NCBI GenBank assembly: GCA_902774055.1
Contig: CACYGX010000020.1
Location: forward strand, 1-50,430
Source: an uncultured Bacteroidales bacterium
GTDB lineage: Bacteria > Bacteroidota > Bacteroidia > Bacteroidales > Muribaculaceae
Direction: 5' to 3'
Length of the DNA stretch: 50,430 bases
A model generated the notes under the pieces. It was not told where the DNA came from. It searched no databases and worked only from the letters and a program-made list of their open reading frames with translations. Below, one piece after another: positions 21,667 through 43,598 of the stretch. The first letter of the stretch is position 1, and every line of letters starts with the position of its first letter. The position numbers were made by a program, and so were the translations under genes.

Positions 21667-22205
21667 TTGCACGCAACGATGAGTCTTTCTCCTTTATCTA
21701 TCAGGAGAACATCGATAGATTGGAGAACGTGTCATTCTTTAATCCCGAGTGTGATGTGCCCTGCCTTGACGACGTGGCATTGTTGTATCTGCCTGGCGGT
21801 TACCCCGAGAAACATCTTGATGCCTTGGTAAAAGCCGAGGCGACAAGGCGTGCCATCAAGCAGTATGCCGAACGTGGCGGTCGCATTATCGCCGAATGTG
21901 GGGGTATGATGTACCTGTGTGAAAAGATTGTCACCGATGAGGGCGAATTTCCCATGTGCGGCGTGCTGCCCTATAGCATCACCGCCCGCAAGGAAGACCG
22001 CAAACTCTCGCTGGGCTATCGACGTTTTACACTTGACGGTAAAGAGTATCGTGGGCATGAGTTCCACTACACGCAGTTCCTGGGCGAAGTGCCGCCATCG
22101 GTTGCACAAGTGTTCAATGCCAAGGGGGAACCGGTGCCGACGCCTGTCATCCGCTATAAAAACGTGTTGGCAAGTTACACACACCTATATTTAGTTAACA
22201 GTTAA
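21642..22205 (+). CDS. cbiA: Cobyrinate a,c-diamide synthase, C-terminal glutamine amidotransferase part
   Basis: The glutaminase half of CbiA. It has the oxyanion/nucleophile segment IIAECGGMMYL (Cys86) and GHEFHYT (His142), preceded by YLPGGYPE. It starts with ATG 21642 inside the end of the first half (25-bp overlap, different frame), so separate translation is formally possible. Its last residues LVNS and the stop are encoded by the AGTTAACAGTTAATAGTT repeat that fills the following junction. Confidence 0.88.
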   Translation: MGTAFKTLIARNDESFSFIYQENIDRLENVSFFNPECDVPCLDDVALLYLPGGYPEKHLDALVKAEATRRAIKQYAERGGRIIAECGGMMYLCEKIVTDEGEFPMCGVLPYSITARKEDRKLSLGYRRFTLDGKEYRGHEFHYTQFLGEVPPSVAQVFNAKGEPVPTPVIRYKNVLASYTHLYLVNS

Positions 22206-22245
22206 TAGTTAATAGTTGCATCTGCGATATAAAGACTAAGGACTA
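22192..22245 (+). repeat. Intercistronic mosaic repeat: AGTTAAT units plus ACTAAGGACTAAAA
   Basis: AGTTAACAGTTAATAGTT and a further AATAGTT unit (period 7) overlap the cbiA stop. They are followed by GACTAAGGACTAAAA, which ends just before ATG 22249. The same two modules occur at 28395-28475. Confidence 0.8.
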
Positions 22246-22248
22246 AAA

Positions 22249-22749
22249 ATGAAACAGATATATACCAAGACCGGTGACGAGGGCACGACCAGCCTGCGCG
22301 ATGGGGTGAGGGTTCCAAAATACGATCCTCGCATCGAGGCTAACGGGCAAATTGACCAGCTGAATGCCCATTTGGGTATCGTGCGGTCGATGCTCAATGA
22401 TGACGAGGAAAACCGTAATCTCATCCATGCCGTGCAACGTGAACTGATGACCATTATGAGCCACATTGCCACGCCCGATGGCAGCGTGAATCCTCGTGAG
22501 CTGCATGTTACTGACTTGGTGCAACAATTGGAACAAGCTATTGACCGTACCGATTATCAAGGCGGTTTTGTTGTGCCTGGCGGCGGCTCGACGCTTGCCG
22601 CTGTCATCCATCTGGCGCGCACCCAAGCCCGCACGGTGGAACGCCGCTTGTGGTCGCTGAATCTGGAGCATCCTGTCAACATTGGCATCATGGTGATGAT
22701 GAACCGCCTGTCTGATTATCTGTTTGTCTTAGCCAACGAAAAAGAATGA
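22249..22749 (+). CDS. pduO: Cob(I)alamin adenosyltransferase, PduO type
   Basis: Transfers the adenosyl group from ATP to cob(I)alamin or to late corrinoid intermediates, making the active cofactor. The 166-aa protein has the N-terminal ATP-binding motif YTKTGDEGTTSL (residues 5-16), the ARTVERR arginine helix and NRLSDYLFVLAN near the C-terminus. It overlaps cbiP by 4 bp (ATGA). This step directly supplies the form of B12 needed by KamDE. Confidence 0.95.
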   Translation: MKQIYTKTGDEGTTSLRDGVRVPKYDPRIEANGQIDQLNAHLGIVRSMLNDDEENRNLIHAVQRELMTIMSHIATPDGSVNPRELHVTDLVQQLEQAIDRTDYQGGFVVPGGGSTLAAVIHLARTQARTVERRLWSLNLEHPVNIGIMVMMNRLSDYLFVLANEKE

Positions 22750-24227
22750 GTAACACACGATTGCATCCAGTCATGTTTGCCGGAACGGGCAGCGACGTGG
22801 GTAAGAGCGTCGTTGCTGCGGCCTTTTGCCGCATCTTCAAGCAAGACGGCTACAGTCCGGCCCCGTTCAAGGCCCAAAATATGGCGTTGAACTCCTTTGC
22901 GACGCCCGAAGGCTTTGAAATTGGGCGTGCCCAGGCCGTGCAGGCCGAGGCCGCTGGTATTCCCTGCCACACCGACATGAATCCGCTGCTGCTGAAGCCC
23001 CAGTCAGACCACACGTCACAGGTGATACTGCATGGCAAGCCCATCGGTAACAAGAATGCCTATGACTACTGGCGTCGCGGCACATCAGACATTGATTATC
23101 GCCGCGAGGTGTGTACAGCCTTTGACCGTCTGGCGTCACGTTTCAACCCCATCGTCATGGAGGGCGCTGGCAGTATCTCGGAAATCAACTTGCGCGACAC
23201 CGACCTTGTCAATCTGCCCATGGCACGTCATGCCCATGCCGATGTGATTCTTGTAGGTGACATCGACCGTGGTGGTGTGTTTGCCTCGGTCTATGGAAGC
23301 ATCGCCTTGCAGACGCCTGAAGACCGTCGGCTCATCAAGGGTATCATCATCAATAAATTCCGTGGTGACATGCGCCTGTTTGACGAAGGCCGCAAAATGC
23401 TGGAGGACATCTGCAGTGTTCCCGTGCTAGGTGTAATCCCTTACTATAAAGATATTTACATCGAGGAAGAGGATAGCGTGGCTTTGGCTCAAAAGTCGAT
23501 GCAGGCCGAGCATGGCAAGGTCAATGTGGCAGTCATCATGCTGCGTCACTTGTCTAATTACACCGACTTTGACGCCCTGGAGCGTGACCCTCGGGTGCAT
23601 CTGTTTTACACCAACAATACTGAAGACATCAAGAAAGCCGACATCATCATCCTGCCAGGCACCAAATCGACCCTGCATGACCTGTACGAACTGCGCCGCA
23701 ACGGTTGTGCCCAGGCCATCGTGAGGGCGCATCGTGAGGGCGCATCGGTGCTGGGTATCTGTGGCGGTTATCAGATGATGGGCATGGAAGTGCTTGACCC
23801 TGACCATGTGGAGGGCGACATCGAACGTTTGCCAGGCCTGGGGCTGCTGCCCACAACCACTACGATGAACGGCGACAAGCAAACGCGCCAAGTCAGCTGC
23901 CAGTATGGTGGCGGCTACGAGATTCATCAGGGCGAGACGCACCCTGTGGGAGACGCGAAACCTTCGCCCCTGTTGCGCCTCGATGACGGACGCGAAGACG
24001 GCTATATCGTTGACCGCAAGTGCATGGGAACCTATGTCCACGGTATCCTTGACAATGGGCCCTTTGTGGACTTCCTGTTGGAACCGTTTAAGGATAAAAT
24101 GGCCGAGCGCGATCAGCCGTTTGACTATACGTCATTCAAAGAAGAACAATACGACAAGTTGGCTGCCCATGTGCGCCAGAACGTCGATATGGAACAAGTT
24201 TACAAAATCCTAACCAGCCATGATTGA
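22746..24227 (+). CDS. cbiP: Cobyric acid synthase (CbiP/CobQ)
   Basis: Amidates the b, d, e and g carboxylates of adenosylcobyrinate diamide. The 493-aa protein has a P-loop GTGSDVGKS (13-21), VMEGAGSISEINL, the glutaminase nucleophile Cys339 in GICGGYQMMG and His431 in GTYVHGI. It overlaps pduO by 4 bp and cobD by 8 bp, indicating tight translational coupling. Confidence 0.96.
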   Translation: MSNTRLHPVMFAGTGSDVGKSVVAAAFCRIFKQDGYSPAPFKAQNMALNSFATPEGFEIGRAQAVQAEAAGIPCHTDMNPLLLKPQSDHTSQVILHGKPIGNKNAYDYWRRGTSDIDYRREVCTAFDRLASRFNPIVMEGAGSISEINLRDTDLVNLPMARHAHADVILVGDIDRGGVFASVYGSIALQTPEDRRLIKGIIINKFRGDMRLFDEGRKMLEDICSVPVLGVIPYYKDIYIEEEDSVALAQKSMQAEHGKVNVAVIMLRHLSNYTDFDALERDPRVHLFYTNNTEDIKKADIIILPGTKSTLHDLYELRRNGCAQAIVRAHREGASVLGICGGYQMMGMEVLDPDHVEGDIERLPGLGLLPTTTTMNGDKQTRQVSCQYGGGYEIHQGETHPVGDAKPSPLLRLDDGREDGYIVDRKCMGTYVHGILDNGPFVDFLLEPFKDKMAERDQPFDYTSFKEEQYDKLAAHVRQNVDMEQVYKILTSHD

Positions 24228-25203
24228 AGGACACGGCGACGATCTGTATCGTTACGACAATATCAAGATGAACTTCAGTTCCAACATCTACAATGGGACT
24301 GACCTGAGTGCGCTGGATGCTTATCTGTGTACCCAGATGCCTGCTATCCGCTCCTATCCTGAGCCCTCGGCGGCATCGTTGGAGCAGATGATTGCCCGCG
24401 AGTGCGGCATCAGCCCCAACGAGGTGCTGGTAACCAGCGGAGCCGTTGATGCCATCTACCTGATTGCCCAAGTCTATCGCGATGAGGGCACTTGCCATGT
24501 GATGCAGCCCACGTTTAGGGAATATGAGGACGCATGCCGCGTGTTCGGCTTCAAGGAGCGTGAGGATGGCGCCCTGTGTTGGTTGTGTAATCCTAATAAC
24601 CCCACGGGTGATGTGATGGCAGTTGAGGACGTGCTGGCGCTTGCCGAGCGATATCGTCTGCTCATTGTGGACCAGTCCTACGAGGACTATACGATGGCCC
24701 CCTTGCTTCAGCCTGCCGACATAGTCGGGCGAGATGACATTATCCTGCTACACTCCATGACCAAGCGCTATGCAGTGCCCGGCCTACGGTTGGGCTATGT
24801 CACTGCTTCGCGAGAGATCGTCCGTCGCCTGAGGGAGCAATACCGTCCTTGGGCAATCAACGCCCTGTCGCTCGAGGCCGGCAAGTGGCTTGTCGAGCAT
24901 GAGGCGATTGCCATCAAAGACCTGCCATCCTATCTTGCTGAGACACAACGCCTGCGGGCCATGATGAACGACATCGATGGCATCGATGCATACGAAACGA
25001 GCACCAATTTCTTCTTGTGCACCATTCGTCAGACGACTGCTGCCCAGTTGAAGGAATATCTGGCCCAGGAGCATGGCATCCTTATTCGCGATGCTTCCAA
25101 TTTCACGGGCCTCACGCCACACCACTTCCGCATCGCCACCCAGTCTCCCGCCGAAAACGATGCCCTCGTCGCTGCCATAAAGGAGTTAATAGAGAATAGT
25201 TAA
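24220..25203 (+). CDS. cobD: Threonine-phosphate decarboxylase-like PLP enzyme (CobD; CobC in Pseudomonas naming)
   Basis: A fold-type I aminotransferase-like protein of 327 aa. It has WLCNPNNPTGDV (122-132) and the PLP lysine Lys182 in HSMTKRYAVPGLRLGYV. In this context it most likely makes (R)-1-aminopropan-2-ol phosphate from threonine phosphate for CbiB, the next gene. Histidinol-phosphate aminotransferase is the main alternative but does not fit the operon. The final residues ELIENS and the stop are encoded by an AGTTAAT-type repeat. Confidence 0.9.
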   Translation: MIEGHGDDLYRYDNIKMNFSSNIYNGTDLSALDAYLCTQMPAIRSYPEPSAASLEQMIARECGISPNEVLVTSGAVDAIYLIAQVYRDEGTCHVMQPTFREYEDACRVFGFKEREDGALCWLCNPNNPTGDVMAVEDVLALAERYRLLIVDQSYEDYTMAPLLQPADIVGRDDIILLHSMTKRYAVPGLRLGYVTASREIVRRLREQYRPWAINALSLEAGKWLVEHEAIAIKDLPSYLAETQRLRAMMNDIDGIDAYETSTNFFLCTIRQTTAAQLKEYLAQEHGILIRDASNFTGLTPHHFRIATQSPAENDALVAAIKELIENS

Positions 25204-25250
25204 TAGTTAATAGTTCTAGATCATCTAGAATATCTAGAATATCTAGAAAG
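25183..25250 (+). repeat. Intercistronic mosaic repeat: AGTTAAT units plus four CTAGA units
   Basis: Period-7 AGTTAAT units overlap the 3' end of cobD. They are followed by CTAGA at 25216, 25225, 25234 and 25243, exactly 9 bp apart, ending 10 bp before the cbiB ATG. The first pair forms the palindrome-like CTAGATCATCTAGA. Confidence 0.85.
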
Positions 25251-25259
25251 TTAAAACTG

Positions 25260-26186
25260 ATGAAAGAAACCCTAACACTCATATTGCCGTTGCTGCTTGG
25301 CTGGGTGCTGGATTTCGTCTTTGGCGATCCCGCCCGACTGCCGCACCCCATTGTGTGGTTCGGAAAGATGATATCGTTTGGAGAACACAGATTGAATAAG
25401 GGCGGCCATCGCATGGCTAAAGGTGCAATGATGGCTATTTGCCTCATTCTATTGGTGTTTTTTGCCGTTTGGGGGCTGAAACGCTTGGTGCCCAATATGG
25501 TTTTGTGGCTCATATTGGACACCCTCATTGTATTCTACTGCCTTGCGGGGACAACGCTTATCCGCGAGGTGCGGGAGGTTTTCCTCGCTTTGGACCGTTC
25601 GTTGGACGAGGGGCGCCAGCAGGTCGCCCGCATCGTGGGACGTGACACGTCACAACTATCGGCCCAAGAAGTGCGCACTGCAGCCCTTGAGACTCTTGCC
25701 GAGAACCTGAGCGATGGTGTGATTGCTCCTTTGTTCTGGTTTGCACTATTGGGTACGCCAGGCATGCTGGCCTATAAGATGGTGAACACACTCGATTCCA
25801 TGATTGGCTATCGCACCGAGCGTTACAAGGACTTTGGCTGCTGGGCCGCCCATATCGACGACGTGGCCAATTACATCCCTGCCCGACTGACGGCCTTGCT
25901 GATGGTTATTGCTTCTGGCCGTTTGTCGCTCCTGAAGTTCGTCTGGAAAAACGGTCGCAAGCATGCCAGCCCCAATAGCGGCTACCCCGAGGCTGCCCTC
26001 GCTGGCATCCTCAACTGCCGCTTCGGCGGTCCCCACATCTATTTCGGCGAACTCTTTGACAAACCCTACATCGGCGAGAACGACCGCGAACTCACCACCG
26101 CCGACATGCGCACCGCTGTCCGCATCAATAGAACATCTGAGGTCTTGATGCTCGCTTTGACGCTTGTTACGGTGATATTTCTTTAG
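25260..26186 (+). CDS. cbiB: Adenosylcobinamide-phosphate synthase (CbiB), membrane protein
   Basis: Joins aminopropanol phosphate to adenosylcobyric acid. The 308-aa protein has several transmembrane stretches and the CbiB signatures LDFVFGDPARLPHPIVWFGK near the N-terminus, LSDGVIAPLFWFALLG, MVNTLDSMIGYR and SGYPEAALAGILN. It ends the + operon. Its TAG (26184-26186) overlaps the TAA of the convergent cobT (26183-26185), so no terminator fits between them. Confidence 0.95.
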   Translation: MKETLTLILPLLLGWVLDFVFGDPARLPHPIVWFGKMISFGEHRLNKGGHRMAKGAMMAICLILLVFFAVWGLKRLVPNMVLWLILDTLIVFYCLAGTTLIREVREVFLALDRSLDEGRQQVARIVGRDTSQLSAQEVRTAALETLAENLSDGVIAPLFWFALLGTPGMLAYKMVNTLDSMIGYRTERYKDFGCWAAHIDDVANYIPARLTALLMVIASGRLSLLKFVWKNGRKHASPNSGYPEAALAGILNCRFGGPHIYFGELFDKPYIGENDRELTTADMRTAVRINRTSEVLMLALTLVTVIFL

Positions 26187-27226
26187 AAGTATTTGGTGAT
26201 GTGGGCGGTGTCGAAGTTGTTCATCTCGTTGATCATGTGGACCGAGGAGGCGATGATGGGGAAGGCGCAGAGGGCTCCCGTTCCCTCGCCGAGGCGCAGG
26301 CCAAGGTTGAGGATGGGGTTGGCGTGGACGATGTCAAGCATGCGACGGTGGCCGCTCTCGTCACCGCAATGGGTGAAAATCATGTAGTCTTGGGCAGCGG
26401 GGTAGAGTTGGATGGCGGCGATGGCGCAGGCGGTCATGATAAAGCCGTCAACCAGTACTACAAGATGCTCTTCGGCTCCACGTAGCATCGCGCCGATGGC
26501 CGTTACCATCTCAAAACCACCGAAATAGCGGATGGCGTTCTCGGTCGTGTGTTCCATCGTCTCATGGTAATGTTCCATCGCCCGGGCTAGTATTTCGCGC
26601 TTGTGTTGGATGCCGGGACTGTCAAGACCTGCTCCTGCACCGATGCACTCGTTGAGCGGTATGTTGCCGAACAGACTCATCCAAATGCTTGACGGCGAGG
26701 TGTTGGCAATGCCCATTTCGCCAATGCACAGCACTTGGCATCCCTCGGCGATGCAGTCATCCACCAGGTCGCAGCCCGTTTGGATGGCGCGGTCAAACTC
26801 CTCCTCGCTCATGGCGGGCTCATACAGGAAATTGCGGGTTCCACGGGCAATCTTGCGGTCGATGATGCCCTCAATAGGGGTTAAGTCATAATCCACACCT
26901 GTGTCCACGATGCGCAATTTGAAGCCGTGTTGTCGGCAGAACATATTCACGCCACCACCGCCACGGGTGAAGTTGATCATCTGTTGCCAAGTGACCTCGC
27001 GTGGTGACACGCTCACCCCCTCGCGCTCAATGCCGTGGTCACCGCCCAGCAGCAGGTGGCAGGGATGGTTCAGACTGGGTGTCAAGGTTTGCTGGATGAG
27101 GCAAATCTGCAAGGCCAGTTCCTCCAGACGGCCCAGCGAGCCTTTGGGTTTATTCAGGTGGTCGATTTTTTGCTGGATGCTCTGTTCCAGCGACTTGTTG
27201 GTGTGTTGTATGTTGAATTTTCTCAT
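26183..27226 (-). CDS. cobT: Nicotinate-nucleotide-dimethylbenzimidazole phosphoribosyltransferase (CobT)
   Basis: Activates the lower ligand base as its alpha-riboside phosphate. The 347-aa protein has NKPKGSLGRLEELA (25-38), LLGGDHGIEREGVS and the catalytic Glu314 in LRLGEGTGALCAFPI. It is the last gene of the cobS-cobC-cobU-cobT unit, preceded by a mosaic repeat that ends 12 bp before its ATG. Confidence 0.96.
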   Translation of the reverse strand: MRKFNIQHTNKSLEQSIQQKIDHLNKPKGSLGRLEELALQICLIQQTLTPSLNHPCHLLLGGDHGIEREGVSVSPREVTWQQMINFTRGGGGVNMFCRQHGFKLRIVDTGVDYDLTPIEGIIDRKIARGTRNFLYEPAMSEEEFDRAIQTGCDLVDDCIAEGCQVLCIGEMGIANTSPSSIWMSLFGNIPLNECIGAGAGLDSPGIQHKREILARAMEHYHETMEHTTENAIRYFGGFEMVTAIGAMLRGAEEHLVVLVDGFIMTACAIAAIQLYPAAQDYMIFTHCGDESGHRRMLDIVHANPILNLGLRLGEGTGALCAFPIIASSVHMINEMNNFDTAHITKYF

Positions 27227-27238
27227 TTTCTTTAGTTT

Positions 27239-27320
27239 CTAGATAGTCTAGATAGTCTAGATTCTCTAGATGATCTAGAACTATTCTCTATTAACTATTA
27301 ACTCTTAACTCTTAACTGTT
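27239..27320 (-). repeat. Intercistronic mosaic repeat: five CTAGA units plus AGTTAAT/AGTTAAG units
   Basis: CTAGA occurs at 27239, 27248, 27257, 27266 and 27275, strictly 9 bp apart. It is followed towards cobU by period-7 units (AGTTAATAGTTAATAG on the - strand, then AGTTAAGAGTTAAG). In the direction of transcription the order is AGTTAA units, CTAGA units, A-rich leader, ATG of cobT, the same order as before cbiB. The AGTTAAG units encode the last residues (VKS) and the stop of cobU. Confidence 0.85.
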
Positions 27321-27814: not shown

Positions 27815-27832
27815 TAGGTCCTATCTGTTTGA

Positions 27833-27855
27833 CGCCCACGCCAAGGCGAGGCCCT
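27833..27855. repeat. Single REP-like palindrome in the cobC-cobU junction
   Basis: GCCCACGCCAAGGCGAGGCCC matches the core of the REP-like family seen at 12502, 12618, 14906, 14987 and 18052, with one flanking change. It lies inside a transcribed operon and would form a GC-rich stem in the mRNA between cobC and cobU. Confidence 0.75.
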
Positions 27856-27861
27856 TCATTT

Positions 27862-28392: not shown

Positions 28393-28394
28393 TT

Positions 28395-28475
28395 AGTTTT
28401 TAGTCCTTAGTTTCTAGATATTCTAGATATTCTAGATATTCTAGATATTCTAGATCATCTAGAACTATTAACTAT
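28395..28475 (-). repeat. Intercistronic mosaic repeat with all three modules
   Basis: Reading with transcription from cobS to cobC there are AATAGTTAATAGTT units, then six CTAGA units spaced exactly 9 bp (plus-strand CTAG at 28414, 28423, 28432, 28441, 28450 and 28459), then AACTAAGGACTAAAAACTAA ending directly before the cobC ATG. The module begins right at the cobS stop. Confidence 0.88.
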
Positions 28476-29261
28476 TCAGTAAATCCTTTGATAGCAGGCG
28501 ACAAGATATACAGCCAGTTCTACCAGCAGACACACGGCACCGCAGCAGTCACCTGTGTAGCCGTTAATCTTGCGCAAGATGAGCAGATACAGGAAATACA
28601 TCACTAGAGCTGGGATGAAAATGACCGTGTACCAGGAGGTGCCCGTCAACCAAATCATCAGCGCCATCGGCAACAGACCTTGCACCGTCAGACTCAATCC
28701 GGCAGCCATCGTGGGTTTGCGGTAGATGGTTTTGTTCTTGGCTTCCTCCTCGCGACGTGCGTAGGGGAGCATATTGACCAGTTGGCTTGTTACCATCTTG
28801 GAGAACGGGTCGGCAGCCAGAATGGTGAGTGCCGCCACGGTCACTGGCATGCTGTAGAGCGAGGTACCTAGCAGCAGCATGTAGATGATAAGCCCCAGCA
28901 CGCCATAGGTGCCAATGTGGGAATCCTTCATGATGGCGAGGATGCGCTCACGATCGCCCCCGCCGCCAAAGCCGTCTAGAAAGTCGGCCAGGCCGTCCTC
29001 ATGCAGCGCTCCGGTAATCAGCAACCGCACACCAATCGCGACAATTACGGCCACGGCATGAGGCAATATCATACTGCCGAAGTAGAGTGTCGCTGCCATC
29101 GCGCCACCTGTGAGCCAACCTGTCAATGGCCAAAACTCAACGACTGTTTTGTAACTTGCCTGCGGGGGTTGATAAATGCGCCAAAAAGGCAGTCGCGTGA
29201 AGAAAATCAACGCTGCCCAAATGCTGTCATACCACCGTGTTTTTACTGCTGTTTCTTCCAT
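28476..29261 (-). CDS. cobS: Adenosylcobinamide-GDP ribazoletransferase (cobalamin synthase CobS)
   Basis: A membrane enzyme joining adenosylcobinamide-GDP to alpha-ribazole. At 261 aa it has the signature GALHEDGLADFLDGFGGGGDRERIL (residues 85-109, acidic metal-binding) and about six transmembrane helices. I place the start at the ATG whose complement is 29259-29261 (MEETAVKTRWYDS). A promoter -7 element, TACCTTTG, lies only 4 bp before it, so the longer frame to 29285 would begin upstream of transcription. Confidence 0.94.
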   Translation of the reverse strand: MEETAVKTRWYDSIWAALIFFTRLPFWRIYQPPQASYKTVVEFWPLTGWLTGGAMAATLYFGSMILPHAVAVIVAIGVRLLITGALHEDGLADFLDGFGGGGDRERILAIMKDSHIGTYGVLGLIIYMLLLGTSLYSMPVTVAALTILAADPFSKMVTSQLVNMLPYARREEEAKNKTIYRKPTMAAGLSLTVQGLLPMALMIWLTGTSWYTVIFIPALVMYFLYLLILRKINGYTGDCCGAVCLLVELAVYLVACYQRIY

Positions 29262-30451: not shown

Positions 30452-30456
30452 TAATT

Positions 30457-30524
30457 CTAGACCATCTAGATTAACTAGACTATCTAGAGTATCTAGAGTA
30501 TCTAGACTATCTAGAGTATCTAGC
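30457..30524 (+). repeat. Intercistronic CTAGA array, eight units
   Basis: CTAG occurs at 30457, 30466, 30475, 30484, 30493, 30502, 30511 and 30520, exactly 9 bp apart, with variable bases in between. It starts 5 bp after the btuF stop and is followed by CAACTAAAGAAAA and the btuC ATG at 30537. It is the longest array of this type in the window. Confidence 0.88.
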
Positions 30525-31574: not shown

Positions 31575-31659
31575 CAAACAACACGAACAACAAATATATT
31601 TAACAACATCAACAACAGATATGTTGTGGTTAGTTGTTTTTTGTTGTTATTGTTGTTTG
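31575..31659. repeat. AAC/GTT low-complexity inverted repeat between convergent btuC and cbiJ-cbiD
   Basis: It opens with CAAACAACACGAACAACAAA, continues with AACAACATCAACAACA, then TGTTGTGGTTAGTTG and ends GTTGTTATTGTTGTTTG. The arms can fold into a long imperfect hairpin and could terminate both convergent transcripts. Its right end runs into the coding region of cbiJ-cbiD, whose last residues FKQQ and stop are written by the repeat. A matching element is at 11292-11374. Confidence 0.8.
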
Positions 31660-33404: not shown

Positions 33405-33416
33405 TTTTTAGTTTTT

Positions 33417-33486
33417 AGTCCTTGGTCCTTAGTCCTTAGTTATTTATAGAGCCTGGATAGCAACTAAGGACTAAGGACTTGGGACT
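33417..33486 (-). repeat. Intercistronic GGACTAA repeat folding into a 17-bp hairpin
   Basis: On the - strand, CCTTAGTCCTTAGTT-type units are followed after a 20-nt loop by AACTAAGGACTAAGGACC. The inner 17 bp pair perfectly and the outer parts imperfectly. Further ACTAAAAACTAAAAA units lead up to the cbiJ-cbiD ATG at 33404. The TAG stop of cbiG-cbiF (33485-33487) lies inside the repeat. Confidence 0.85.
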
Positions 33487-36529: not shown

Positions 36530-36556
36530 TTTGATTTCAGTATTAAAGGTTAAATC

Positions 36557-36590
36557 TAACTATTAACTATTCTCTATTAACTATTAACTT
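36557..36590 (-). repeat. Intercistronic AGTTAAT repeat between cbiH-cbiC and cbiE-cbiT
   Basis: On the - strand AGTTAATAGTTAATAG, AGAATAGTTAATAGTT: period-7 units with the same GAGAATAGTTAATAG variant as at 25183. It starts 2 bp after the cbiH-cbiC stop. Confidence 0.8.
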
Positions 36591-36591
36591 C

Positions 36592-37992
36592 CTAAAGGTC
36601 TCGTCCTGGTTTTAGTTGTTCCGCATCATCAAAGGTTAAGATGGCGTTGCACAGGGTTGCCGCGAGATTGCTGCCGCCCTTGCGGCCCTCGACGATGATT
36701 TTGGGGATATCCTTGAAGGGCTTGACCATGTGCTTGGACTCGCGCACATGAACAAAACCGACAGGTGCGGCAATAATACCGGCAGGATGGGCCTTGCCCT
36801 TACGGATGAGGTCGCAAAGCTCCATCAGCGCCGTCGGTGCGTTGCCAAAGGCAAACAGCGCGTCGGGATGCTCCTCAACAGCCAGACGGATGCCCGCCTG
36901 AGTGCGGGTGATGCCTAGTGTCGCTGCCATCTCGGCGACTCGCGGGTCACTCAGGTAGCATTTAGCCTCCATGCCTAGTCGAGCAAGTGCCCCCTTGCGG
37001 ATGCCGCTGGTCACCATTGTCACATCGGTTACAATAGTCTTTAACTCACCGTTTGAGACCTTGTGATAGAGGGCTTCCACAGCGCCCTCGTCGGTGTAGA
37101 GTATCCGTTCCATCTCAAAGTCGGCCGTCGTGTGGATGGCGTGCAAGAGTGCCCATTTGTGGTCAAGCGGGATATCTTTGTTGCGAAGTTCGCTCTCGAT
37201 GGTGCGGAACGATTCAATCATGATTTGTTGGCCAGGCTTGATGCCCTCGTCACCTCGCTCGCGATAATAGCCGCGCGGGGTGATGATCTTGTCATCGCTG
37301 ATATAGGACTGAGAGTTGCCAATGAGAATCACGGTAAACATATCCACATCCTCAGGATTGAAATGGGCAAGAGAGGTTACCTTGACCTCCTGTTCGTCGC
37401 GACCCGCCTGGCGGACGTATCCCACGGGCGTATCGCCGCTGCGCTGTTGCAGGAACAACTCTACCAGGCGGTACAGTTGCCAGTAGCGGCCATTGGACTT
37501 GGGATTATAGACAGCAGTAACAAAATCACCGACGGCGGCCGCCTTGATGCGTCGCTCGATGACCTCCCATGGGGTCATCAGGTCGCTCAGCGAAATGATA
37601 CACAGGTCATGGCCGATGGGGGCGCCCAGTAGCGAAGCGGCTTTTTGAAAAGCCGAAATGCCCGGCAATGATTCAATCTCCACATCAGAACCGCGTTCCT
37701 GTTTCATTTCATAGACCAGCGGCGTCATGCCGTAGATGCCCGCATCGCCCGAGGAGATGACCGCAACTGCCTTGCCCTGCTCGGCCAGTTCAAAGGCCTG
37801 CTCGGCGCGCTCGCGTTCCTTCTTCATCCCCGTGTCGATGCATTCGCAGCCATCCTGGACATATTCCTGAATGAACTGGAAATAGTACTTATAGCCCACA
37901 ATCGCGTCTGCCGCGCGTACTGCGTTGAGTACGGCGGGCGTGATGTCTTCTTTACTGCCAGGGCCGATGCCTGCTACTATAATCTTTCCCAT
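36592..37992 (-). CDS. cbiH-cbiC: Fusion of cobalt-precorrin-3B C17-methyltransferase (CbiH) and cobalt-precorrin-8 methylmutase (CbiC)
   Basis: 466 aa from the ATG whose complement is 37990-37992 (MGKIIVAGIGPGSKEDITPA). The longer frame to 38046 adds 18 non-family residues and is rejected. Residues 1-240 are CbiH: GYKYYFQFIQEY, CIDTGMKKERERAEQAFELA, ISSGDAGIYGMTPLVYEM (79-96) and VYNPKSNGR. Residues about 253-466 are CbiC: catalytic His287 in AIHTTADFEMERILY, TMVTSGIRKG, AFGNAPTALMEL and APVGFVHVRESK. The two activities stand at the early and late ends of the corrin ring pathway. Confidence 0.95.
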   Translation of the reverse strand: MGKIIVAGIGPGSKEDITPAVLNAVRAADAIVGYKYYFQFIQEYVQDGCECIDTGMKKERERAEQAFELAEQGKAVAVISSGDAGIYGMTPLVYEMKQERGSDVEIESLPGISAFQKAASLLGAPIGHDLCIISLSDLMTPWEVIERRIKAAAVGDFVTAVYNPKSNGRYWQLYRLVELFLQQRSGDTPVGYVRQAGRDEQEVKVTSLAHFNPEDVDMFTVILIGNSQSYISDDKIITPRGYYRERGDEGIKPGQQIMIESFRTIESELRNKDIPLDHKWALLHAIHTTADFEMERILYTDEGAVEALYHKVSNGELKTIVTDVTMVTSGIRKGALARLGMEAKCYLSDPRVAEMAATLGITRTQAGIRLAVEEHPDALFAFGNAPTALMELCDLIRKGKAHPAGIIAAPVGFVHVRESKHMVKPFKDIPKIIVEGRKGGSNLAATLCNAILTFDDAEQLKPGRDL

Positions 37993-38073
37993 ATCAGTTG
38001 CAAATTTAGCAAAATAAATAAAAATGGAGGCACAGTCTCCCGACAATCCTCCATAAATGATTACAATATAAGG

Positions 38074-40140
38074 TTACTTGATTTTCAATTTCAGGCCAAT
38101 CACGAGCATGCGTCCTGGTGAGTACAGGGCATACTTGCGATTGGATGAGTCGATTCGGCGATCCACCTTGTCAAAGATGTTGTCGATGCCGATGCTCGGC
38201 TCCAGATACAGGTGCTTTAACCCGTCAAACGAGTGTTTAGTGTTCAGGTTCCAGATACCGTAACCCGGCGCATCCTCATAGCCGGGATAGTAGGTCTTGG
38301 ACTGCAACCTGCCGTTGATGTTCACATTGAGGCCGTAATTGCCCCAACTGTGGTAATAGTTGGCGGCAACGGTGGCGGCGTTGCGGATGCTTCGCTCTAG
38401 CGGAGCCCATTGGCCTTCGCTACAGGTGCGGGCATAGGTGTAAACGTAGTTGGCCGACAGGTTAAACCCCCTGAACAAGTTGGCCGAGACGTTGACCTGC
38501 ACGCCCTTGACATCGCCCTTGTCGCTGTTCTTGTATAGTGAGTAGCGCTCGAGTTTCTGGGCTTGGTCATCGGTCATCTCGGGAAATTCGGTCTGGAGCA
38601 TGGCCAGCGTTGTTGCATCTACATCGATGTTCTGCTTGATGACCATGTCATTGATGCGGTTGATGAATCCCGTCACGCTCACGGCAATCAGGTTGGTTCG
38701 ATACTCGGCATTGAGCGAGAAATAGTTGCTTTTCTCGGGCTTGAGATCCTTGTTGCCGAAGATGATTTGGGCCTTGCCGCGGTTAACCGAGAAATAGTGG
38801 TAATACAACTCGTCAAGACCCGGAGCGCGGAAGCCTGCCGAATAGGTGGCACGCAGGCGGAAGTTGCCCGGTGCATACATCAGTGTGGCCTTGGGCGTGA
38901 GGTGCCAGTTGAAGGTCTCGTGGTAGGTCAGGCGGAGGCCCACTGTGGCCGTCAGTCGCTCAAAGAAGGTCATCTCGTGCTGGGCAAATGCGGCTGCTGT
39001 ATAGGCATTCTGGTTGATGTTGCCCGAAGAGGCGGTCAGGAAGTCCTTGCGCCAATCGGCTCCAAAGATTGTCGTCGAATGCTTCATGAGTCCTAAGATG
39101 GCCTTTAATTGGCCTTCCATCGAGCGTTGTTTCTTGGACTGCACATAGTCATCGATGGCGTAGGTCTTGGTGACCACGTCATACTGCTTACCATAGCGGA
39201 AACGATCGACGGTGAAGTCGGCCTGCAACGAGTTACGGTTTGTGAACTTGTAGATGCCGCCCACGTTCCAGCGCAGGCCCTTGTAGCGCATCTCATATTC
39301 GGTGCCGCCAGTGATGTCCTTGCGAGCCTCGGGGCGGTCGGTAATCTTGTAGGAATAGTCGATGCCGGCATTCAGTGCCAGGTGTTCGTTGGGGGCATAA
39401 GTGAATTTTTGTCCCACGAGGTTTGCCCGATAACCGGTAAAGAACGGGGCGATAGTCGGCTGGGTCTCGGTCTCTGAATCCTTGACAAATTCCACATCAT
39501 TGATGCGGTAACTGTCGGCACGGTCGCGCGAAAACGAGGTGTACGAGCCGAAACCGTTCTTGTAGATGTCCAGGGTGATATTTTCAGTCAATTGGCCATG
39601 GCCCGACACGCGTGTGTCGCTGGTGAGGGAAACCAGTTGCTGGGTGGGCTGGTCGGTGATGATGTTGATGACACCGGCGATGGCGTCCGACCCGTAGAGC
39701 GACGAAGCGGCGCCGTCAAGCACCTCGATGCGCTTCACGCGAGCCATGTTGATGCGGTTCAGGTCAACGTTATTGGAAACGTCGCCCGTCAATTTTTGAC
39801 CGTTAATAAGTATGAGGATATACTTGTTTCCTAGTCCGTTGAGCCTCAGGAATGTGCCCATTGAGTTAGGAGCCATCGACACCTGTGGCATCATGCGGGT
39901 CAAGGCACCGTCAAAGGTGGTGATGCCTTGCTCCTTGATTTCCTGGCTGCTGAGCACATGAACGGGTGTAGCGGTGGATTTCAGGCGCTGGTGGTGACCC
40001 GAACCGGTCACAACCACAGGATTTAAGGTGTAAGTGCGGCTCATCAATGACGAGTCGCTGCGTTCCATCTTGTGGATTTGGGAAAATGAGGCACTCCATG
40101 TGAAGAGTGCTAGAACTAACAGTGTGATTTTCTTAATCAT
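38074..40140 (-). CDS. btuB: TonB-dependent outer membrane receptor (BtuB-like), receptor 1
   Basis: 688 aa with signal peptide (MIKKITLLVLALFTWSASFSQ) and plug domain: TonB box-like NPVVVTGSG near residue 41, then LRLNGLGNKYILILINGQKL, RIEVLDGAASSLYGSDAIAGVINIIT. A 22-strand-type barrel follows, ending in an aromatic-rich C-terminus (GRMLVIGLKLKIK). It lacks a carboxypeptidase-like or SusC-type N-terminal domain, fitting siderophore/B12-type receptors. It lies in the riboswitch-led cob operon, so cobalamin or a corrinoid precursor is the likely ligand. Confidence 0.88.
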   Translation of the reverse strand: MIKKITLLVLALFTWSASFSQIHKMERSDSSLMSRTYTLNPVVVTGSGHHQRLKSTATPVHVLSSQEIKEQGITTFDGALTRMMPQVSMAPNSMGTFLRLNGLGNKYILILINGQKLTGDVSNNVDLNRINMARVKRIEVLDGAASSLYGSDAIAGVINIITDQPTQQLVSLTSDTRVSGHGQLTENITLDIYKNGFGSYTSFSRDRADSYRINDVEFVKDSETETQPTIAPFFTGYRANLVGQKFTYAPNEHLALNAGIDYSYKITDRPEARKDITGGTEYEMRYKGLRWNVGGIYKFTNRNSLQADFTVDRFRYGKQYDVVTKTYAIDDYVQSKKQRSMEGQLKAILGLMKHSTTIFGADWRKDFLTASSGNINQNAYTAAAFAQHEMTFFERLTATVGLRLTYHETFNWHLTPKATLMYAPGNFRLRATYSAGFRAPGLDELYYHYFSVNRGKAQIIFGNKDLKPEKSNYFSLNAEYRTNLIAVSVTGFINRINDMVIKQNIDVDATTLAMLQTEFPEMTDDQAQKLERYSLYKNSDKGDVKGVQVNVSANLFRGFNLSANYVYTYARTCSEGQWAPLERSIRNAATVAANYYHSWGNYGLNVNINGRLQSKTYYPGYEDAPGYGIWNLNTKHSFDGLKHLYLEPSIGIDNIFDKVDRRIDSSNRKYALYSPGRMLVIGLKLKIK

Positions 40141-40154
40141 GCGTGTTTACGTTA

Positions 40155-40229
40155 AAACTACGAATTACGCGAATTTAACGAATGCTATGTGGCGATGCCA
40201 ATTGGTCTAATTCGCGTAATTCGTAGTTT
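40155..40229. repeat. Perfect 21-bp inverted repeat between cbiK and receptor 1
   Basis: The arms 40155-40175 and 40209-40229 are perfect reverse complements (core CGAATTACGCGAATT) with a 33-nt loop containing another GAAT unit. It lies between the cbiK stop (40241) and the receptor-1 start (40140). Related CGAATT-type sequence occurs at 14837, 17965 and 35318. No T-run follows on the - strand, so it may attenuate or punctuate the operon but is not a classic terminator. Confidence 0.88.
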
Positions 40230-40240
40230 AATGTTGAGTT

Positions 40241-41335
40241 TTACTCGGGATTCTTGCTGTGATAGAAGTCGAGAGGATCACCGTCGATGGCGTCCTGGGT
40301 GTGCTCCATCCACACTTGACGGACAGTGGGGAGTTCCAACAGACCCTTCTCGATCATGGTCGAGTTGTTGCACTCATAACCCAGGTGGTGGAAGTACATC
40401 TTCCAGGAGGTGTCTTCTACCTCGCCCTCCTCGTTGGGGGTGAACTTAGTGCCGTCCCAGTTGTCGTCGTCGTCACCGGCCATGTCGTTGTGACCGTGGT
40501 CACCGTCAATCGACATCAGGGGATGGCAAAATACCTTACCGCTGGTGAAGCCGGCAGCAAGCATGCGGGCATAGACGTTGGTCTTGAAGTTGTCCATCAT
40601 GTCAACAGTGCCAACAAAGTAGTGGCTGTTGAACTGCTGGAGAGCCTCCTCGAGTTGAGTGTAGCGCACGTTGGCCTTGTAGGTGTCATAGGAGTCGGGG
40701 TTACCGTGACCCATAAAGGCAACAACACCCTCATTGGCTTTGTCCTTGTAGAGCTTGTTCAACTCGGTAGCAACGCGGGTCACGTCAGTTTCGGCATCCT
40801 GCAGCAGGGGCACACCCAGCTTGAGGTCAACGATCGACAGATACTTGTCGCTGATGTCACCGTTGGCGTTGTTGGCAAAGTCCTTGATGTAGTTGATCAC
40901 GCGGGTGTATTCCTCACCAGGAATTACCTGCAGTGATTGTACAACGATTTCCATGTACTCAACCTCGGCAAAGGCATTGAGCCAGAAGGGAGGTGCATAG
41001 AAGTTGCGGGGATCAACGTTCTCACCAGCAGCGGCACGGTTGATGCAGATGGCTGAGGAGAATGACAGGAACACGTCATAGCCAGGGAAAGCCTGCTTGT
41101 AGGCTGCAACAGTGTTGTCAAATGCGTTGTAAGCCTGCTCCCAAGTTGAACCAAAGGCAACCAGCAGGATAACCTTGTCGTTCTTCTTTTGGGACTTTAC
41201 AGTCTGGGTAACGGCTTTCTGGTAAATTGTGTAGTTGTTCTCGATGGGATCGTCCTTGTCGTCTTTGCAAGAAGTGAAACCCAAAGTCAGGCAGATTGCC
41301 ATCATGGCAATCAACAAAGATTTAATCTTCATCAT
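40241..41335 (-). CDS. cbiK: Exported CbiK-type cobaltochelatase-like lipoprotein
   Basis: 364 aa with a lipoprotein signal (LTLGFTSC, lipid Cys23) followed by KDDKDD, resembling the surface-export signal of Bacteroidota lipoproteins. The chelatase fold is visible: VILLVAFGSTWEQAYNAFDNT, FMGHGNPDSYD (His210), FVGTVDMMDNF and CHPLMSIDGDHGHNDMAGD (His271, His280, His282). An acidic insert, GDDDDNWDG, follows. CbiK inserts cobalt into sirohydrochlorin. Here it would act outside the cytoplasm, like the periplasmic CbiK of Desulfovibrio or the haem-binding IhtB of Porphyromonas. Haem or porphyrin handling is an alternative role. It overlaps receptor 2 by 14 bp. Confidence 0.88.
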   Translation of the reverse strand: MMKIKSLLIAMMAICLTLGFTSCKDDKDDPIENNYTIYQKAVTQTVKSQKKNDKVILLVAFGSTWEQAYNAFDNTVAAYKQAFPGYDVFLSFSSAICINRAAAGENVDPRNFYAPPFWLNAFAEVEYMEIVVQSLQVIPGEEYTRVINYIKDFANNANGDISDKYLSIVDLKLGVPLLQDAETDVTRVATELNKLYKDKANEGVVAFMGHGNPDSYDTYKANVRYTQLEEALQQFNSHYFVGTVDMMDNFKTNVYARMLAAGFTSGKVFCHPLMSIDGDHGHNDMAGDDDDNWDGTKFTPNEEGEVEDTSWKMYFHHLGYECNNSTMIEKGLLELPTVRQVWMEHTQDAIDGDPLDFYHSKNPE

Positions 41336-43472
41336 TGTTTTGTGTTTTGGAATTAAAGTTAGACTTATACTTATTTGAAAGTTTCTTTCCTTGGTTGAAA
41401 CGGATGGTCAGCGAAACATAACCTGTGCGGCCCGGGGTAGTCGTGCCCAGGTGCAGCCCGTGGGGCGTACGGTCGCAGTAGTTGAAGATGTTGTCCACGC
41501 CAGCCTCGACGCGCCAGGTGGTTGCTTTGAAATGGCCCAGGTCATGGGTCGTGGACAGGCGCCAGGTCTGATAGCCCTTGCCGTTGCCGTCGTCCTGATA
41601 GTAACGGGTGCTGGACATGCGGCCATAGATGCCCACGCCCAAGCGATAGTCGGCCGAGAATCGGTGACCCCACGTGGCAAACCAGTTGCCCTTGTGATGG
41701 GCCATGCCGTCGATGGTGACTTTGCGCATCTTGTCGTGGTTGGAGTCGTACTGGTTGGCGTCGGTATTAAGGTAACTGTATCCCAGCCCGAAAGCAAACT
41801 CACGCCACTTGTAATTGACATTCACGTCAACGCCATAGGTCTTGGCGTCCTCGATGTTCTGGTACTGGCGGGTCTTGACAGGGTCATATTGGATAATATA
41901 CTCGTCAGGAGCCTGATAGTTGGGAATGGTTACCAGCGTAATCATGTCCTTGACCTTATTATAATAGCCAGTGACGGTGATGTTCAGGCCGCGCCAGCCA
42001 TATTCTCCGCTCACCGAGAAGTAGTTGCTCGATTGCGGCTTGAGCTTGGTATTGCCCAGGTAGAGGTAGGTGCCACTCATCTGGCGCACGTAGCGGTAGA
42101 ACAGTTCGCGGATGGCAGGCGTCTTGAAACCTTGGCTCCAGGTGGCGCGCAACCGCCAAGCGTTGGCTGGTTTCCACATGACAGACACCTTGGGCGTGAG
42201 TTTTGTGCCAAACTGCTCGTTCTGGTTCAAGCGCAAGCCGGCGGTGATGTTCACGTTGTGGATAAGGTTGAACTCGTCTTGAACATAGACTGCTGCCGTC
42301 CAGTCGCTGGCCTTGCCGCCCTTGACACGTGTGGGGGCATGGAGCCAGTCATAGCGGAATTCCATGCCTGCGCTCAGGATATTCTCGTAGGGTAGGGTGA
42401 ACACGCCCTTCAGCGCCGCCATCGTGCGTTGCTGGTCGCTCTGCAACTCTTTCTGGCCAGGGAGATACGGGAAGTAGGGATAATAGGGCGTGCCAGCGCT
42501 CTTCTCGTAGTCCTCGACGAGCGTCGTAGCCGTGTAATAGTAGTAATAGGCATGGCGGTGCCAGTCCACGTCCAGCGAGATGTAGTCGGTCTTTGAACGG
42601 CTCCACTTGCCGCCGATGGATGCCGAGCCGTTGTGGTACTCCATGTCCCAAGTCTTCACGTCGTAGTGGGGATGGTGGCCGCTCACGCGGTAGATGCGTT
42701 TCCAATAGGTGCTGCCGTCGGCATAGAGTTCCACATTTTTAGTGGGCTGATAGGTCAAGCGCTCGGCGATTTGCCAATTGGTGTGGCGGTTCACCGTCTT
42801 GTTGCGGGAATCGGTGATGGGAGGCTCCGCCCCCTCGGTATGCTCGACCGTGGTGTTCTGCCAGCCGTCGCTGTGCTGCAGTTGGAAGTTGGTGTAGCTG
42901 CTGAACTTGCCGTAGTTCAATGCCAGACCATTGTGCTGGCGCACATCGCCATAACTGCCCAGACGGGTCGTGTTCTCAATCAACAATCCCTCCTCACGGT
43001 GTTTCTTGGTGATGATGTTGACCACACCAGCAATCGCATCCGAGCCATAGAGGGCACTCGATGCACCCTTTACAATCTCGATTTTCTCAATATTCTGTGG
43101 GTCAATCAGCGACAAGTCATTCTGGCCACCCACATCCCCGTGGATGCGCTTGCCGTCAATCAGGATCAGGATATAGCTGTTGCTCAATCCATTCAGCTGC
43201 ATCTGCGAGCCCATGTCATCCTGGTTGAAGGCAAACGACGCCGTGAGACCACCCAGGATGTCCTCGATGCTCTTGCCCGCATAGTCGCGCAGCATCTTGC
43301 TGGTAATCACCTCGGTCTGTACGGGCGCATCCTTCAGCAGGTGCTGCGTGCCAGTACCCGTTACCACTACCTCTGGCAAACTATCCTGCCGCCAGATGTC
43401 ATTCTGTGCATTGACAGCCGCAAACGCGCATAAAGCCAGCACTGCTGCCGTCAGTCTTTTTCTTTTCTTCAT
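41322..43472 (-). CDS. btuB: TonB-dependent outer membrane receptor (BtuB-like), receptor 2
   Basis: 716 aa from the ATG whose complement is 43470-43472 (MKKRKRLTAAVLALCAFAAVNAQ, signal peptide). The longer frame to 43565 runs into the untranslated leader and is rejected. TonB box-like LPEVVVTGTGTQ, plug blocks MQLNGLSNSYILILIDGKRI and IEIVKGASSALYGSDAIAGVVNIITKK, then the barrel. It is the first gene after the cobalamin riboswitch, which makes a corrinoid ligand likely. Its 3' end overlaps cbiK, so the two are translationally coupled. Confidence 0.9.
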   Translation of the reverse strand: MKKRKRLTAAVLALCAFAAVNAQNDIWRQDSLPEVVVTGTGTQHLLKDAPVQTEVITSKMLRDYAGKSIEDILGGLTASFAFNQDDMGSQMQLNGLSNSYILILIDGKRIHGDVGGQNDLSLIDPQNIEKIEIVKGASSALYGSDAIAGVVNIITKKHREEGLLIENTTRLGSYGDVRQHNGLALNYGKFSSYTNFQLQHSDGWQNTTVEHTEGAEPPITDSRNKTVNRHTNWQIAERLTYQPTKNVELYADGSTYWKRIYRVSGHHPHYDVKTWDMEYHNGSASIGGKWSRSKTDYISLDVDWHRHAYYYYYTATTLVEDYEKSAGTPYYPYFPYLPGQKELQSDQQRTMAALKGVFTLPYENILSAGMEFRYDWLHAPTRVKGGKASDWTAAVYVQDEFNLIHNVNITAGLRLNQNEQFGTKLTPKVSVMWKPANAWRLRATWSQGFKTPAIRELFYRYVRQMSGTYLYLGNTKLKPQSSNYFSVSGEYGWRGLNITVTGYYNKVKDMITLVTIPNYQAPDEYIIQYDPVKTRQYQNIEDAKTYGVDVNVNYKWREFAFGLGYSYLNTDANQYDSNHDKMRKVTIDGMAHHKGNWFATWGHRFSADYRLGVGIYGRMSSTRYYQDDGNGKGYQTWRLSTTHDLGHFKATTWRVEAGVDNIFNYCDRTPHGLHLGTTTPGRTGYVSLTIRFNQGKKLSNKYKSNFNSKTQNNDED

Positions 43473-43561
43473 TTGCTTTCCGTCACACCTGTTCCTGAGT
43501 GAACGTACTAAATTAATGTTAGCCTCTAGCCTCCAGTTCCCAGTCGCAATAGTTAGTGAAA

Positions 43562-43598
43562 CCAACTATTAACTGTTAACTGTTAGCTATTAACTGTT
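43562..43598 (-). repeat. AGTTAAT-type repeat between riboswitch and receptor 2
   Basis: On the - strand, directly after the riboswitch: AACAGTTAATAGCTAACAG, then TTAACAGTTAATAGTTGG. Period-7 units as in the other cob junctions. The rest of the leader (43473-43561) shows nothing further. Confidence 0.75.

Follow-up and report, generated by a model that had tools for sequence, protein, structure and literature searches.

What are short tandem repeats doing between the genes of a vitamin pathway? The question is raised by a 50,430-nucleotide stretch of DNA from an uncultured Bacteroidales bacterium (assembly GCA_902774055.1, contig CACYGX010000020.1; called the window below), which is the entire contig C20 of a genome of 3.17 Mb in 54 contigs. 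An earlier note, made from the sequence alone, had described a mosaic of repeat modules at the junctions of a cobalamin island at 22 to 44 kb. The Pfam content bears out the island: genes of cobalamin synthesis and uptake occupy this region, with products that include GATase, adenosyltransferase, CobQ, aminotransferase, CobD, a CobT-like phosphoribosyltransferase, CobU, phosphatase, CobS, a periplasmic binding protein, an FecCD permease, CbiJ/CbiD, a CbiG-methylase fusion, CbiC, CbiK, and two TonB receptors. The repeats exist and exceed chance by a wide margin. The modules are parts of one arm-core-arm cassette and not three free modules, which accounts for their fixed order. A role of the cassettes at the level of mRNA is likely, though unproven.

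Repeat arrays at the gene boundaries of a cobalamin island

Three kinds of repeat module are found in the window. The AGTTAAT module gives 17 matches to AGTTAATAGTTAAT with at most two mismatches, against 0.09 expected in shuffles; the palindromic module, with a period of exactly 9, gives 19 matches to TCTAGANNN with at most one mismatch, against 0.06; and the GGACTAA module gives 10 matches with at most two mismatches, against 0.20. All sites named earlier were recovered, namely six for AGTTAAT (one of them, at 28464 to 28480, weak), four for the 9-mer, and 22230, 28395, 33417, and 9262 for GGACTAA, with an opposite GGACTAA arm at 33461 to 33481. The AAC/GTT arms near 31575 and 11292 can be read from the sequence and are also reported by Tandem Repeats Finder (TRF). 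That nearly every junction of the island carries repeats was overstated: of 18 junctions, 8 carry a module, a count that includes one riboswitch leader, and 4 leave no room because their genes overlap. Within 22 to 44 kb, all three modules follow one another only at 28393 to 28475. The features are as follows.

22193 to 22213, plus strand: post-stop AGTTAAT array in which the upstream GATase gene ends, the array coding for its final residues and stop codon (sequence, pattern match)
22233 to 22248, plus strand: pre-start GGACTAA units that run up to the ATG of the adenosyltransferase gene (sequence, pattern match)
25184 to 25211, plus strand: AGTTAAT array over the aminotransferase stop codon (TRF, pattern match)
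25215 to 25247, plus strand: TCTAGANNN palindrome array of 4 units at junction J2, aminotransferase to CobD (TRF, pattern match)
27283 to 27317, minus strand: post-stop AGTTAAT array at J4, CobU to CobT (TRF, pattern match)
27238 to 27279, minus strand: TCTAGANNN palindrome array of 5 units at J4 (TRF, pattern match)
28464 to 28480, minus strand: AGTTAAT units over the stop codon, weak (2 mismatches), at J6, CobS to phosphatase (sequence, pattern match)
28413 to 28463, minus strand: TCTAGANNN palindrome array of 6 units at J6 (TRF, pattern match)
28393 to 28413, minus strand: pre-start GGACTAA/AAACTAA units ending at the ATG at J6 (sequence, pattern match)
30456 to 30524, plus strand: TCTAGANNN palindrome array of 8 units, two imperfect, 4 nt past the stop codon at J8, BtuF-like protein to FecCD permease (TRF, pattern match)
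33408 to 33442, minus strand: pre-start GGACTAA arm of an inverted pair at J9, CbiG/methylase to CbiD/CbiJ (pattern match)
33461 to 33484, minus strand: post-stop arm at J9, reading AGTCCTT on the gene strand and forming the reverse complement of the pre-start arm (pattern match)
36555 to 36589, minus strand: post-stop AGTTAAT array (TRF, pattern match)
43561 to 43595, minus strand: AGTTAAT array within a TonB receptor gene's leader, sharing positions with the 3' end of the riboswitch (pattern match, riboswitch match)
9262 to 9337, plus strand: GGACTAA-type units, together with inverted ones, ahead of the gene at 9340, with a GGACTAA match at 9296 (TRF, sequence, pattern match)
11294 to 11374, plus strand: AAC/GTT inverted arms at a co-directional junction (TRF, sequence)
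31578 to 31658, no strand assigned: AAC-rich and GTT-rich inverted arms between convergent genes (sequence, TRF)
40146 to 40232, no strand assigned: inverted repeat containing ACGAATT-type units and flanked by two co-directional genes (read from sequence)
43584 to 43774, minus strand: cobalamin riboswitch (RF00174, 77.1 bits)

The array at 43561 to 43595 lies in the riboswitch-bearing leader of a TonB receptor gene and therefore marks no intercistronic junction. At gathering score, Rfam finds the riboswitch alone in the window, and no array matches a structured RNA family.

Across the whole genome, exact AGTTAATAGTTAAT has 24 matches and GGACTAAGGACTAA 28, each on both strands together, and three-unit TCTAGANNN, being palindromic, has 58 per strand; reversed control patterns have none in the 3.17 Mb. 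For closer study, 40 stretches of this genome outside the window were taken. Junction and folding counts use the untargeted sample and the window, and 20 stretches picked by pattern hits feed the counts of GGACTAA orientation, inverted pairs, 9-mer spacers, unit divergence, A before start codons, and distance to the stop codon. Genes were called with a simple hexamer caller, so that starts may be off, as for cobS. Co-directional junctions in the window hold an AGTYNNN pair in 6 of 27, a RACTNNN pair in 4, a 9-mer pair in 4, and both arm types in 3, against 7, 12, and 4 of 308 outside it for the three kinds of pair, and the island is thus unusually array-rich. AGTY/RACT pairs occur in coding DNA at 0.027 to 0.10 per kb across this genome, the window, and the genus defined below, and in co-directional gaps with 45, 20, and 213 hits, respectively; heptamer tandem arrays are concentrated between genes, and the link of the modules to gene boundaries is supported. 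Equal frequency outside operon junctions, which the earlier note had named as an outcome that would speak against it, was found in part for the 9-mer. Its pairs are not restricted to operons: outside the window they occur at 2 of 59 convergent and 1 of 69 divergent junctions, beside 4 of 308 co-directional ones. Confinement to this assembly, another outcome that the note had named as refuting, is excluded: other assemblies carry these arrays at corresponding junctions, so that they are no artifact of this one.

Layout and orientation of the cassettes

Relatives were taken as the best 80 of at least 583 CobQ matches, mostly rumen or other gut metagenome genomes labeled Prevotellaceae, Muribaculaceae, Porphyromonadaceae, or Bacteroidales. 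We call "genus" the loci L045 to L069, with CobQ identity of at least 90% (90 to 95%); two loci of the "near" set, L070 and L075, fall inside the genus clade on the protein tree. The genus loci share ancestry, so that their counts are not independent, and their GGACTAA and AGTTAAT array counts cover the island loci. In 25 close-relative loci one layout recurs, reading stop codon, AGTTNNN units, AGT-TCTAGA-NNA-TCTAGA, AAACTAR units, and ATG. The post-stop part consists of AGTTNNN arrays, a palindromic TCTAGANNA array, or both, mostly in sense orientation to the gene just ended, and the pre-start part of A-rich RACTNNN arrays, such as GGACTAA and AACTATT, that reach up to the ATG. Where the neighboring genes lie on one strand, the parts can join into an arm-core-arm unit with the character of an inverted repeat. 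Among 168 co-directional junctions of the genus, AGTYNNN pairs fall 81 times in the first half of the gap and 8 times in the second, and RACTNNN pairs 18 and 106 times; in the outgroup this bias is absent (5/6 for AGTY, 6/8 for RACT). The constant order of modules along transcription claimed earlier holds here and extends to the relatives, being kept in 21/21, 14/14, and 13/13 junctions with two parts.

Since RACT is the reverse complement of AGTY, a single rule covers both arms: read outward from a gene end, the strand is AGT(T/C)NNN. Outward orientation within about 50 bp is seen here at both gene ends. In all 14 junctions classified (12 co-directional and 2 divergent), strict GGACTAA arrays aim at the start codon that follows them; this set is smaller than the 28 exact matches. 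One nonstrict array lies between convergent genes, and three at stretch ends were left out of the classification. Strict pairs of AGTTAA followed by T, C, or G are in sense orientation in 12 co-directional junctions, one being the riboswitch leader, and their reverse complement stands before the start in 3 junctions. Among convergent or divergent junctions of this genome with AGTY/RACT pairs, 4 of 6 obey the outward rule and 2 violate it. Another 17 AGTY pairs violate it in divergent gaps of the genus, in six species and apparently at a single junction; the hexamer caller truncated the cobS start, so that these pairs probably directly precede cobS. Replication direction was rejected as the cause of the orientation, because island junctions lie on both strands and the orientation tracks transcription.

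The hexamer TCTAGA makes the core palindromic, so that the orientation of a 9-mer array is visible in its spacer only. The third spacer base on the sense strand is A in 47 of 59 spacers of this genome and 51 of 56 of the genus, compared with 25/59 and 27/56 at position 1 and 13/59 and 11/56 at position 2; the A content of the gaps, 0.33 to 0.34, does not account for this. The sense spacer is favored in 13 of 14 co-directional junctions of this genome (9 of 10 with the window excluded) and in 20 of 22 of the genus, with two ties. Twelve of the 14 arrays begin no more than 20 nt past the stop codon, and 10 lie nearer to the stop than to the start. The convergent arrays, four in number, are all found within 20 nt of the right-hand stop and favor the sense of the right-hand gene (4:0, 3:1, 2:1, and 3:2), although two of these leans rest on one spacer; one divergent array has no lean. 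The 9-mer would thus be mainly a post-stop element.

The divergence of neighboring units bears on the idea, raised earlier, that the modules are debris of replication slippage. In a fuller form of this idea, slippage would act on the DNA between genes, and template switching at hairpins would produce the inverted arms. Slippage gains some plausibility from the copy number of the TCTAGA run, which varies from 2 to 6, and from same-period pairs, which are inverted rather than direct in 6/3 cases in this genome, 6/0 in the genus, 1/0 in the near set, and 5/0 in the outgroup (18/3 in total). In shuffles, inverted pairs average 1.10, 1.38, 0.34, and 0.19 in the same order, with maxima of 5, 5, 2, and 2, so that all sets except the near set exceed their own null. 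Heptamers, moreover, were reportedly the commonest long repeat class in most genomes surveyed by Mrazek in 2007 (as cited in PMC4679880 and PMC4692102). However, slippage-type simple repeats should be alike over the full length of adjacent units, and, as measured for the 9-mer, they are not: adjacent units differ at 0 to 0.14 per hexamer site against 0.43 to 0.63 per spacer site (20 arrays of this genome, 24 of the genus), where unit extension required at least 4 of 6 hexamer matches and so lowers hexamer divergence somewhat. With TCTAGA constant while spacers diverge, simple slippage fails, and copying of whole units would yield like spacers. Orientation that tracks transcription is likewise foreign to slippage. 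As sole cause it is highly improbable and largely refuted, and it may still set copy number.

The richness of the modules in TAA and TAG, also remarked upon earlier, would fit multiframe stop tracts that end the travel of stray ribosomes, the more so as a period of 7 covers all frames. Stop triplets, however, are about equally frequent on the sense and antisense strands (133/131 in this genome, 320/306 in the genus, 60/53 in the near set, 103/100 in the outgroup), and in the period-9 unit the stops all fall in a single frame. Stops as the selected feature are thus unsupported, and we consider this explanation scarcely credible.

Exchange among relatives and taxonomic spread

A tree of five concatenated proteins separates the group from L073, L074, L078, L080, L103, and L076, in which the corresponding genes mostly overlap (ATGA, gap of -4) or are separated by 1 nt; at some junctions, L080 and L103 have gaps filled with repeats that are their own. 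Gaps of 30 to 150 nt make up 0.41 of co-directional gaps in this genome and 0.45 in the genus, against 0.23 in both the near set and the outgroup. Because the cassettes occupy sites where genes of other relatives overlap or abut, they have probably replaced tight stop-start coupling by separate initiation. At btuF-btuC the end of the upstream protein is preserved, and the insert stands exactly between stop and start; at the GATase-adenosyltransferase junction, the array itself supplies the protein tail and the stop codon.

Cassettes differ in kind between close species. L054 and L059 have different ones at btuF-btuC and cobS-phosphatase. In 812 species-pair comparisons of a junction whose flanks diverge by less than 0.2, alignability is below 60% in 299, 60 to 90% in 452, and 90% or more in 61. 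Within this last group, divergence is lower than that of the flanks in 42 cases and not lower in 19. Differences between cassettes amount to 0/92 (J6, L053/L054), 0/76 (J2, L054/L059), and 1/68 (J4, L053/L069, with a 4-fold-site divergence of 0.25) beside adjacent coding divergence of 2 to 20%, and the extremes, identical at 0/92, 0/76, and 0/47, stand beside 3 to 20%. Two other sequences recur at these junctions. The palindrome GAGACGCAAAATTTTGCGTCTC and near forms are found at several junctions and in several species (L049, L050, L054, L056, L061, L065), and cyanobacteria have comparable palindromes; TTGGCATCCGC is an alternative core to TCTAGANNA between AGTT-type and AACT-type arms, in either orientation (L045, L046, L061, L062, L191, L198).

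Three-unit TCTAGANNN is present in 74 of 101 genus genomes, this one included, with 0 to 165 matches per strand. In an order-wide sample of 247 genomes it occurs in 3, namely this genome, one with a single match, and G311, a member of another family with 83 per strand; GGACTAAGGACTAA likewise occurs in 3 of 247, with 1 and 2 matches outside this genome. Within that sample, 9-mer and GGACTAA arrays are thus nearly confined to the genus, with G311 excepted for the 9-mer. Five G311 arrays in four stretches all lie downstream of stop codons, one about 85 nt off, at co-directional and convergent junctions, and their adjacent units differ at 0 to 0.22 per hexamer site against 0.35 to 0.65 per spacer site. 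In other lineages the inverted pairs are made of different units, among them GGTTTGA/TCAAACC, GTAGTTAA/TTAACTAC, and CACAGAGTA/TACTCTGTG.

Several further repeats were noted in passing. In G169, of another family, the reversed control AATCAGGAATCAGG has 18 and 7 matches, and another family of heptamer arrays may exist there. Stretch L028 of this genome holds 10-bp AAATCAAAAC arrays at 5772 to 5845, 7936 to 7970, and 10581 to 10615, one with an inverted partner, as a further arm type, and TRF lists a AAATCTCACGT unit once in the sample of this genome, window included. At the gene-poor contig end of the window, 49629 to 49756, 11-bp units of TTACGTGAGAT stand in tandem, beside a second pair, TTACGTGAGC; ahead of it, at 48220 to 49180, runs a series of short open reading frames that we take to resemble a DUF3791/DUF3990 pair, the second seemingly interrupted.

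The main rival to a role in mRNA is a host-neutral dispersed element of the repetitive extragenic palindromic (REP) or miniature inverted-repeat transposable element (MITE) type, spread as short units, tolerated at gene boundaries only, and purged from the disfavored orientation. REP sequences and the bacterial interspersed mosaic elements built from them are palindromic repeats that follow stop codons between co-directional or convergent genes, a likeness to the arrays here; REP units have longer hairpins, a fixed foot, and a REP-associated tyrosine transposase (RAYT), and no clear RAYT link emerged from the Y1 counts and loci described below. A dispersed element would account for a single family at many junctions and in many species with constant internal order, for the wholesale switches of cassette type between close species seen in the 299 poorly alignable pairs, and for the high copy number of the three-unit 9-mer in G311 beside a single occurrence in the other 245 genomes of the order sample. 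On the other hand, no gene that would mobilize the arrays was found: Y1 transposases of the RAYT type track array counts weakly (Spearman 0.22, p 0.028, 101 genomes), 4 of the 9 genomes that lack a Y1 match nonetheless carry arrays, and none of four Y1 loci has arrays, a weak test in that two of those genomes lack three-unit arrays anywhere. Orientation and position also seem too regular for neutral insertion. We regard such an element as possible, though on balance improbable.

A proposed role in mRNA and relation to known systems

The reading that we put forward, tentatively and at somewhat less than an even chance, is that of gene-boundary cassettes that act in mRNA. Past the stop codon, palindromes and paired arms would fold into a beaded hairpin, which may set RNA stability or separate neighboring cistrons; before the start, the A-rich arm would offer an open landing site to ribosomes that do not use Shine-Dalgarno pairing. 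The predicted fold is a beaded hairpin with 4-bp arm helices, 6-bp core helices, and 3-nt loops between, and structured co-directional gaps (z below -2) make up 36% in this genome, 39% in the genus, 21% in the near set, and 14% in the outgroup. In the phylum Bacteroidota, mRNAs are described as lacking Shine-Dalgarno sites, and A at -3 as boosting initiation (PMC6847099). The frequencies of A at -3 and -6 are 0.85/0.85 at 9-mer junctions (13 starts), 0.59/0.59 at RACT arrays (27), 0.67/0.50 at AGTY arrays alone (12), and 0.49/0.43 at other gaps of at least 30 nt (265). Orientation, placement, conservation, and this extra A favor a role in mRNA.

Several observations weigh against this reading. 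Cassette-free convergent gaps are still more structured, with z below -2 in 75% of those of this genome, and the folding shows no signature of the RNA strand: sense and antisense are the lower in 88 and 104 co-directional gaps of this genome, respectively, 65 and 67 of the genus, 15 and 7 composites, and 16 and 9 of the 9-mer junctions. The occurrence of 9-mers between convergent genes, no less often than between co-directional ones (2 of 59 against 4 of 308), means that they cannot serve initiation alone, and 7 of the 14 co-directional 9-mer arrays also lie within 20 nt of a start codon, just as two of the four convergent ones also lie within 20 nt of the left-hand stop. Outside the window, the positional bias in this genome is weaker (first/second half 5/3 for AGTY, 12/25 for RACT), and both arm types stand together in 0 of 308 co-directional junctions. 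As for conservation, the fully alignable pairs, 48 of 68 of which fall below the divergence of the adjacent 100 nt of coding DNA, are a favorable subset, and identical cassettes may reflect recent copying as units instead of selection. The earlier suggestion that the modules tune RNA folding or reinitiation thus stays plausible in a phylum without Shine-Dalgarno sites and is weakened by the equal folding of both strands.

Three more specific candidates were set aside. RNA-specific folding through G-U pairs is unsupported, the strands folding about equally. Intrinsic terminators, sought as a G+C-rich stem with a T run behind it, do not stand out, with 19 terminator-like sites against 18.3 expected at 22.0 to 41.9 kb and none in an array junction. 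Pairing of TCTAGA with a longer 16S tail was rejected on a single 16S end, that of G051 (1 of 61 genus genomes), which reads CCTCCTTTCTGGAG without TCTAGA; two further pattern searches of the 61 for the tail found nothing. A Shine-Dalgarno-like CAAGGAGGACAGAATATG does occur in the window, at 10481 to 10499 ahead of the gene at 10497, in a phylum from which such sites are described as missing.

The earlier note knew of no named element with this structure, and for the sequences themselves literature searches agree: no paper on AGTTAATAGTTAAT and no named element for the units was found. The layout, however, has relatives in Xanthomonas and Nostoc. According to Rehm et al. 2015 (PMC4692102), intergenic arrays of GGGAATC in Xanthomonas and GGGGAYT in Nostoc face outward, mostly within 50 bp of a start (noncoding strand) or stop (coding strand, overlapping the stop), with inverted pairs in 70 and 75 cases in xanthomonads but rarely in Nostoc. 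From one of two compared species to the other the arrays differ in the number of units and mostly stay in place, and the function was left open. The arrays here share the outward rule and the distances with both, and the inverted pairs with xanthomonads. Those units are G-rich and quadruplex-forming, whereas AGTTAAT, GGACTAA, and TCTAGANNA are AT-rich without a GGG tract and so place the cassettes outside the quadruplex class, and the parts of that paper drawn on here describe neither a palindromic 9-mer core nor swapping of cassette types. TAACTGA arrays in Beggiatoaceae, cyanobacteria, and five Bacteroidetes (MacGregor 2015, PMC4679880) are likewise heptamers placed mostly just before starts, in fixed direction and where Shine-Dalgarno sites are few, and some Bacteroidetes gaps mix in other heptamers as the cassettes here do. 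Unlike these, the cassettes have a different heptamer and a 9-mer core, of which the consulted parts of that paper make no mention, and post-stop sets are exceptional there. In Geobacter metallireducens (2009 genome paper, PMC2700814), two tandem arrays of 3 to 5 units of 7 to 9 nt on opposite strands occur in many copies; the passages concerned give no stop/start polarity, and the authors propose sites of a global regulator.

The units may also be tandem binding sites, each taking up one protein, of a regulator that recognizes RNA or DNA. Proposals of this kind are in print for both TAACTGA and the Geobacter pairs, and a constant hexamer with a free spacer in a register of 9 would suit them. 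That unit sequences vary between related lineages with a similar layout argues the other way, and we think such sites unlikely here. Judged from sequence, then, the layout is already known and elsewhere unexplained, and what appears new is the AT-rich units, the palindromic 9-mer core, and the exchange of cassettes. A broader and rather doubtful extension of the mRNA reading is that Bacteroidales keep exchangeable operon linkers, in which outward arms flank an interchangeable core (TCTAGANNA arrays, GGCATCCGC, GAGACGC palindromes, or ACAATAAAT arms). Such linkers would be copied whole into junctions, would replace coupling by independent initiation, and would be conserved once installed, the layout being kept and the sequence being lineage specific.

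The outward inverted-pair layout seems not to need quadruplex-forming sequence, which suggests that quadruplexes cannot be its general cause. Bacteroidota make up a large share of the gut and rumen flora, and the cassettes bear on how they express the genes of an operon at separate levels without Shine-Dalgarno pairing. The cassettes are defined, oriented, and comparable natural linkers, for which related species have different versions or none at a given junction, and as a set they offer a way to probe the function of such repeats.

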